The notes under the pieces: generated by a model
What the model was told of the DNA's origin: nothing
What the model saw: the letters and a program-made list of their open reading frames with translations, nothing else
Databases searched by the model: none
DNA from: Limnohabitans sp. INBF002
GTDB taxonomy: Bacteria > Pseudomonadota > Gammaproteobacteria > Burkholderiales > Burkholderiaceae_C
DNA length: 64,000 nt
Reading direction: 5' to 3'
Assembly: GCF_027924905.1 (NCBI RefSeq)
Contig: NZ_AP027055.1
Coordinates: 1,798,001 to 1,862,000 of the forward strand
Shown: one piece after another, positions 30,034 to 30,377 of the stretch
Position numbering within the stretch: position 1 is the first letter of the stretch
Layout of the letters: every line of letters starts with the position of its first letter
Position numbers and translations under genes: made by a program

Positions 30034-30130
30034 TTGCTGGGCTCGCTGGACGCGACTGGTGGGCGTCGCTGCTTCATGCTGGCGTACCAGAAATCATGGC
30101 GACGCCCACCAGCCACGCCCAGACTACGGC
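30034..30130 (+). repeat. Palindromic repeat, left copy
   Basis: Order of parts: conserved outer flank ending GCTGGGCTCGCT-GGACG; stem arm CTGGTGGGCGTCGC (30056-30069); 29-base loop containing TCATGCTGGCGTACCAGAAATC; perfectly complementary arm 30099-30112; conserved inner flank AGACTACGGC (30121-30130). The loop itself has a CTGG/CCAG mini-stem. The stem is 14 bp and perfect, but its sequence differs from that of the right copy. Confidence 0.9.
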
Positions 30131-30252
30131 ATAGGTTTTGGCACGCCTTCTGCATGGCTCGTGCCTTTGGCACATTGCCACGCAACGCAAACACGACTGC
30201 CGCTCGTAGGAACTGATGTGGCAATCGCGACAGCGGAGCCACAACACTGCAG

Positions 30253-30350
30253 GCCGTAGTCTTGGGGGTTGAGGGATGAGCGGGTGACGATTTCTGGTAC
30301 CCCAGCATGAGGAACCCGCTCATCCCTCAACGTCCAAGCGAGCCCAGCAA
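30253..30350 (-). repeat. Palindromic repeat, right copy (inverted)
   Basis: Read on the minus strand it has the same parts as the left copy: flank GCTGGGCTCGCTTGGACG, a stem arm, a loop with TCATGCTGGGGTACCAGAAATC, the complementary arm, and AGACTACGGC. The 18-bp stem arms (GTTGAGGGATGAGCGGGT at 30268-30285 and its complement at 30314-30331) are perfect but unrelated in sequence to the left stem. An extra CTTGG/CCAAG pair (30261-30265 with 30334-30338) extends the stem past a 2x2 internal loop. Confidence 0.9.
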
Positions 30351-30371: not shown

Positions 30372-30377
30372 TACAAT
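30372..30377 (+). promoter_or_regulatory. -10 box of thrB
   Basis: TACAAT 29 bases before the chosen thrB start, giving an expected transcript start near 30384 and a leader of about 22 bases. The outer end of the right repeat (30350) falls where the -35 should be, and no canonical -35 is visible. Confidence 0.5.

Follow-up and report, generated by a model that had tools for sequence, protein, structure and literature searches.

REPINs and BIMEs are extragenic inverted doublets that spread as a unit, leave single palindromes behind as remnants and carry compensatory changes in their hairpins (PMC3116915). Rickettsia palindromic elements (RPE) are dispersed palindromes found in frame within unrelated genes; a 2024 review (PMC10969869) regards in-frame fusions by MITEs as not unusual, names Rickettsia as standing out in how often they occur and finds it conceivable that they play a similar role in other prokaryotes. 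Hairpins with perfect arms also occur inside coding sequence in nematomorph mitochondria, where each of the two arms codes for conserved residues of the native gene (PMC6649704).

Here we describe a family of hairpins represented between polA and thrB of a Limnohabitans genome. It resembles REPINs and BIMEs in all four of the above respects, but each half is a ~77-bp hairpin in which the conserved part is an internal loop, whereas the ends, which are highly conserved in REPs and REPINs, vary together with the stems; no RAYT was linked to it in the loci examined or co-occurred with it, and in-frame genic copies are present. With RPE, to which we liken it by description only, it shares palindromic, dispersed copies that keep the reading frame of the unrelated genes they sit in, namely uvrA and others whose best matches are hrpA and formate dehydrogenase alpha, but it is found in other bacteria, has a doublet architecture and a constant internal loop with freely varying stems, and is mostly intergenic (201 of the 227 distinct copies scored). 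In contrast to the nematomorph palindromes, these hairpins are insertions that have a core in common. The closest described systems are REPINs in way of working and RPE in the genic copies, and we file the family under neither. No description of it was met in the literature searched, which mostly left out subscription papers; the terms looked up, mostly Comamonadaceae names, were absent from the accessible text of the papers on intrastrand triplex repeats (PMC4666352) and on GTAG/CGTC REPs (PMC3733652). We conclude that the locus probably holds one copy of a REPIN- or RPE-like non-autonomous mobile element of a branch of the Comamonadaceae, recognised by its structure.

The two-hairpin unit between polA and thrB

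The window (the whole stretch of DNA analysed, 64,000 nucleotides) contains the unit between the genes for DNA polymerase I (polA) and homoserine kinase (thrB), which are transcribed away from each other. Its parts are listed here, with the functional strand of each hairpin assigned from the family-wide mismatch bias described below.

30034..30350: whole two-hairpin unit (doublet), 317 bp, between divergent polA and thrB
30034..30047, plus strand: left outer end TTGCTGGGCTCGCT, inverted at 30337-30350 (14 nt, 100%)
30046..30122, minus strand: left hairpin, arms 30046-30069 and 30099-30122; functional strand minus
30074..30095, minus strand: left core; the minus strand reads GATTT-CTGGTACGCCAG-CATGA
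30118..30265: inner ends (30118-30130 and 30253-30265) and variable middle (30131-30252)
30261..30338, plus strand: right hairpin, arms 30261-30285 and 30314-30338; functional strand plus
30289..30310, plus strand: right core, GATTT-CTGGTACCCCAG-CATGA
30337..30350, minus strand: right outer end, reverse complement of 30034-30047

A preliminary description of the locus had reported two inverted copies between these genes, and the loop, outer ends and inner ends do match in inverted orientation, the core over 22 nt at 95% (30074-30095 and 30289-30310) and the inner ends over 13 nt at 92% (30118-30130 and 30253-30265). It had given the stems as perfect, at 14 and 18 bp; instead, the arms are complementary over 24 nt (88%) in the left hairpin and 25 nt (92%) in the right, and on one strand G.U pairing accounts for some of the apparent stem breaks. 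Folded as RNA, the left hairpin forms one continuous helix with G.U pairs on its minus strand. The loop itself is not open and contains a small hairpin, CTGG-NNNN-CCAG. A 20-base loop pattern, with up to three mismatches allowed, matched twice in the window compared to a mean of 0.04 in 100 shuffles, which speaks against a chance occurrence.

All four strands of the two hairpins folded better than 200 of 200 shuffles, both as RNA (z −4.4 to −7.5) and as DNA (z −5.6 to −7.2). The functional strand (F) is the more stable one as RNA in both hairpins, and as DNA the difference is small. For the left hairpin, the RNA values are −60.1 kcal/mol (z −6.9) for the minus strand and −51.8 (z −4.4) for the plus strand, compared to −33.3 and −32.6, respectively, as DNA; for the right hairpin, z is −7.5 (plus) versus −6.0 (minus) as RNA and −7.2 versus −6.3 as DNA.

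Rfam gave no match above the gathering threshold in the window and nine loci, and the sub-threshold matches, chiefly to miRNA hairpins, were discarded. The skipping-rope RNA (RF02924) gave a weak covariance hit to the left hairpin, which was rejected because its 14.6 bits lie far below the gathering score of 36.7 and it falls on the opposite strand. Upstream of thrB, a TACAAT box (30372-30377) that is kept in the aligned relatives lies ~20 bp from the right end of the element, and the insertion may therefore have replaced the upstream part of the thrB promoter.

Distribution and structure of the hairpin family

A 22-base loop pattern (at most three mismatches) matched 20 times in the 2.59-Mb source genome and its reversed-pattern control not at all. 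The preliminary description had proposed a covariance model; the model that we built, R1, from the first 70 of 111 references no more than 86% alike, finds at least 26 hairpins in the source genome (best 150 of 511 candidates scored) and at least 62 in a relative, G312 (best 150 candidates scored). Because at most 150 candidates were scored per genome, or stricter filters were used, all of the R1 genome counts are lower bounds. With the stricter filters, 200 genomes sampled from the GTDB family included 38 with an R1 match, and 41 genomes of the genus included 12. Only 3 of 250 genomes in a sample of the order had a match under these filters, which lose weak matches; all three belong to the family of the window genome (seven family genomes are in the sample listing), and no match fell outside it. 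A 20-base core was present in at least 120 stretches of genome contigs, and the 80 stretches among the matches listed were, by name, nearly all from Limnohabitans, Rhodoferax, Polaromonas or other Comamonadaceae or Burkholderiales. Viral contigs contained no exact match to the two common core types. One 43,973-base record titled as a Chitinophaga pinensis metagenome-assembled genome (L077/L279) agrees in length and in hairpin position with contig G299:C31 of the window genome's family, and its name looks wrong.

The alignment of 70 sequences revealed that all 26 of the 26 pairs in the lower helix have changed on both sides, with a covariation score of 0.755 compared to 0.172 in shuffles and at most 0.177 when slid. 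Over the whole structure 90.1% of the cells pair, and one lower-helix pair, at columns 32-59, is unpaired in 54 of the 70 sequences. Stems already covary between copies within G312, and three of its doublets (L257, L258 and L263) have a quite different stem in one half. The suggestion that the stems go on pairing while their sequence changes is thus borne out, and neither an element unique to one locus nor stems that do not covary, which the preliminary description had named as findings that would speak against it, is what we observed: the element is dispersed and its stems covary.

In contrast to the stems, the internal loop C-GATTT/YATGA-G is constant, while stem, apex and ends vary. In 50 R1 matches from 22 loci of relatives, CGATTT and YATGAG were each intact in 47, and column entropy was ~0.1 bit in the internal loop versus 1.4 in the arms; these matches are not independent, since 32 come from G312 and one is an antisense match of another hairpin, and the 22 loci had largely been missed by the earlier pattern, with the alignment fitted to R1. 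In the alignment of 70 sequences, which had been selected by their loop sequence, GATTT does not vary. From the alignment, the internal loop may be drawn as two G.A pairs followed by U.U. Apices in divergent copies include CTG-CTCG-CAG, TGG-CTCG-CCG and longer forms, and the outer flanks of 192 copies are of type A in 45, type B in 26, both in 3 and neither in 118. Thus, the loop that the preliminary description had called conserved is so in its internal part, GATTT/YATGA, whereas the apex and the outer ends, which it had included, differ between subfamilies.

The stem pairs that depart from Watson-Crick pairing do so on one strand. The loop sequence alone was used to find 192 distinct copies, which were then scored symmetrically; in these, the TCATG strand has 4284 Watson-Crick pairs, 293 A.C, 23 G.T and 111 other mismatches, and the 293 A.C mismatches become G.T or G.U when read on the opposite strand. 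The mismatches thus depend on the strand (293 versus 23), which marks one strand as folded and functional; by this bias, strand F reads GATTT-apex-YATGA. Among 32 hairpins of G312 the counts are G.T 49 and A.C 18, with 13 of the 18 in the outermost column of one group. We conclude that the structure is under selection, on one strand.

Doublets, single hairpins and copies inside genes

In seven genomes, one of which (G366) has no pair, the F strands point outward in 53 of 53 pairs. A wider set of 126 clusters, each with a gene no more than 800 bp away on each side (genes being crude ORF calls), contained 35 outward two-copy clusters of 36, the remaining one having both hairpins the same way, and two three-copy clusters besides; there was no clear orientation bias relative to tandem neighbouring genes (26 versus 20). 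In G312, 29 doublets with starts 153-155 bp apart lie at many sites and 4 of 62 hairpins are unpaired, three of these being cut by contig ends. We aligned 16 doublets, which are all those in the 17 G312 stretches used (the remaining stretch has a single hairpin), and they align through the interior, while their flanks mostly do not. By eye, 7 of the 16 share extra flank, four on the left and four on the right, which blurs the exact ends; in L363, L364, L257, L262, L265 and L266 some tens of bp of extra flank are common on one side, as if neighbouring DNA had been captured. In G451:C3:266-1116 (L205, L213 and L220), six R1 matches follow one another in ~174-bp steps, two of them overlapping and five in one orientation.

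The polA-thrB doublet itself occupies the corresponding position in L225, L041 and L087 (Limnohabitans sp. Jir61), with a variable middle that differs in length and sequence in L225 and L041. Empty sites, which the preliminary description had proposed to look for, were found in L227, L228 and L230, whose short polA-thrB spacers lack the element. A single hairpin in L070 looks, from the alignment, like the result of a deletion between the palindromes, and mixing of arms is seen there as well. No exact target duplication was readable in the alignments of this locus or of the G312 doublets, in which the boundaries are blurred. Dispersed copies together with presence or absence at orthologous sites are as expected of a MITE-like element, and the earlier proposal of a non-autonomous dispersed element gains support from copies in many genomes and from G312 doublets that align inside and mostly not in their flanks. 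Since the 29 G312 pairs have one spacing at many sites and related spacers lack the element, the pair looks like the mobile unit; the evidence comes from this one genome, and doublets probably spread as units in the others too.

In the source genome, 12 of the 26 hairpins are unpaired. For 11 of these 12, F lies on the strand matching nascent lagging-strand DNA (two-sided binomial p = 0.006; exception at 1618307), a comparison that was thought of after the positions had been seen and that concerns one genome. Its replication frame has dnaA at position 161 and a GC-skew switch near 1.25 Mb in the sampled stretches; a dif-like pattern gave no match, and the terminus was placed by sampled GC skew. 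The strand preference fits either preferential loss of hairpins with the more stable strand on the lagging-strand template or a bias in insertion.

The preliminary description did not foresee in-frame copies inside genes. A long uvrA in L274, L278, L284 and L290 contains such in-frame hairpins at apparent linkers; the ~1.85-kb doublet spacing in the first three of these had at first looked like an autonomous element and was rejected as such when the gene proved to be uvrA. The source genome has single copies in open frames of 829, 903 and 638 codons, with HrpA, UvrA and formate dehydrogenase alpha as the best NCBIfam matches; the proteins are partial, and among these three only the UvrA match passes its curated cut-off. 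We compared the UvrA region from TGRYLLHAM to VSGSGKST, a pattern that matched 15 of 34 loci, in three genomes of the genus with the hairpin and ten without it (13 of 30 genus loci with a readable region), and found 117-123 residues with the hairpin (L291-L293) versus 62-75 without. In L291 (G000:C1:2294708-2295469), one UvrA frame of the source genome has 2007 codons and two UvrA-like parts, a second hit in this genome lies in a frame of 1106, and alanine-rich stretches border the hairpin insertion. Judged from their reading frames, the in-frame copies would be translated as linker peptides.

Among the 227 distinct copies, a 10-base apex occurs in 17 genic copies and at 10 other places, compared to 7 genic copies and 177 other places for the 12-base apex; the genic rule admits some doubtful cases among these seven. 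F lies on the coding strand in 13 of the 26 scored genic copies and is antisense in the other 13. Mismatches were counted in 19 of the 26, leaving out seven copies with the 12-base apex, and amounted to G.T 17 and A.C 2 in nine antisense copies and G.T 19 and A.C 1 in ten coding-strand copies. Pairing, with G.T allowed, was part of how these copies were chosen, so this count carries less weight than the one from 192 copies.

The search for a mobilising enzyme, and alternative readings

The preliminary description had considered an HUH/REP-type transposase and a search for a linked transposase or recombinase, and neither gained support in the loci and genomes covered. A RAYT would be the first enzyme to suspect. 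The source genome has one match to Y1_Tnp, a RAYT-like gene (L141:1052-1894; G000:C1 near 2246545), and a tblastn search of loci L001-L253 and the window with this RAYT matched only the gene itself. Y1_Tnp matches are not associated with the element, being carried by 30 of 38 element-positive and 117 of 162 element-negative genomes. Clustering of 568 neighbouring ORFs revealed no transposase recognised by eye in the 25 largest clusters, and none was recognised by eye at half copies at G312 contig ends or at four further loci of that genome. Judged by eye, the neighbours that recur most resemble housekeeping genes.

One explanation, a REP/REPIN family mobilised by the RAYT of the same genomes, has in its favour that REPINs likewise show inverted doublets, singleton remnants and compensatory change (PMC3116915), that the source genome does carry a Y1_Tnp match, and that hairpins in L024, L053 and L072 sit inside GGGGTCAGA..TCTGACCCC ends like those beside the RAYT gene. 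We nevertheless consider it rather unlikely, given the lack of physical linkage in the loci searched and of co-occurrence, a conserved part that is an internal loop and not fixed ends, and the eight element-positive genomes of 38 with no Y1_Tnp match, of which one, G353 (95% complete), has four copies. Nor does a structured RNA, whether an sRNA or an mRNA element with the strand GATTT..YATGA, that serves the host at each site and was spread by ordinary duplication, account well for the data. An RNA would typically show both a G.U-type bias of one strand and strong covariation, as seen here; folded as RNA, F is more stable than its complement, with little difference as DNA. However, since the functional strands within a doublet are opposed, a single transcript would not contain both in functional form, F runs antisense to the mRNA in half of the scored genic cases with the bias persisting in the nine antisense copies counted, and the recurrent neighbours have a housekeeping look; we regard such a host function as quite improbable. 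It is because the two hairpins of a doublet would not both be functional in one transcript, and because the bias persists where F is antisense to a gene, that we favour single-stranded DNA over an RNA serving the host. A self-transcribed RNA intermediate is possible.

That the structure is not selected at all, with the arms kept identical by template switching or quasi-palindrome correction, appears very improbable. Template switching has been discussed as a way to perfect palindromes (PMC6649704), and the arm mixing in L070 would suit it, but a correction process acts equally on the two strands and would not produce ~13 G.T mismatches for each A.C, and it has not converted the internal loop to perfect stem. 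In G312, moreover, G.T occurs both in columns that also hold A-T and in columns that also hold G-C, so that C-to-T change alone is insufficient to explain it. Transcription terminators or other fixed host signals are scarcely credible: the hairpins are strong and GC-rich and convergent gene pairs are common (43 of 126 clusters), but 15 of the 126 clusters lie between divergent genes, as at polA-thrB (with genes called crudely), the sequence following the functional strand appears by eye to be A-rich and not T-rich, and in-frame copies lie within genes.

For the mobile element that we favour, each hairpin would be recognised as a folded single-stranded nucleic acid of one strand, through the fixed internal loop C-GATTT/YATGA-G clamped by helices that are free in sequence if paired. 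A trans-acting enzyme would copy the doublet, handling the hairpin as single-stranded DNA or RNA, as proposed for REPINs, and old doublets may decay to single hairpins through loss of one palindrome, of which L070 is one example. Beyond this, we tentatively put forward, as something a little short of probable, a selfish family read by an enzyme other than RAYT purely via the internal loop (tandem G.A next to U.U) of a strand-specific hairpin, with all other sequence drifting, together with protein-coding palindromic insertions outside the Rickettsiales that recur in UvrA linkers. Since the conserved part amounts to a few unpaired bases, repeat finders that seek conserved sequence would miss such an element. 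Its many covarying hairpins make it possible to deduce the structure that is recognised, and the family can serve to test whether small elements of this kind move as single-stranded DNA or RNA. Judging by the copies in uvrA, a core repair protein seems to be gaining palindromes.

The repeats that flank the Y1_Tnp gene of the source genome, GGGGTCAGA and TCTGACCCC, constitute a different palindromic family. Chimeric palindromes, in which long inverted ends, GGGGTCAGATCAACATTAATTT-like and similar to those next to the RAYT gene, enclose a hairpin core, are found at L024:495-634, L053:1982-2120, L053:3402-3540, L072:932-1069 and L072:3954-4092.
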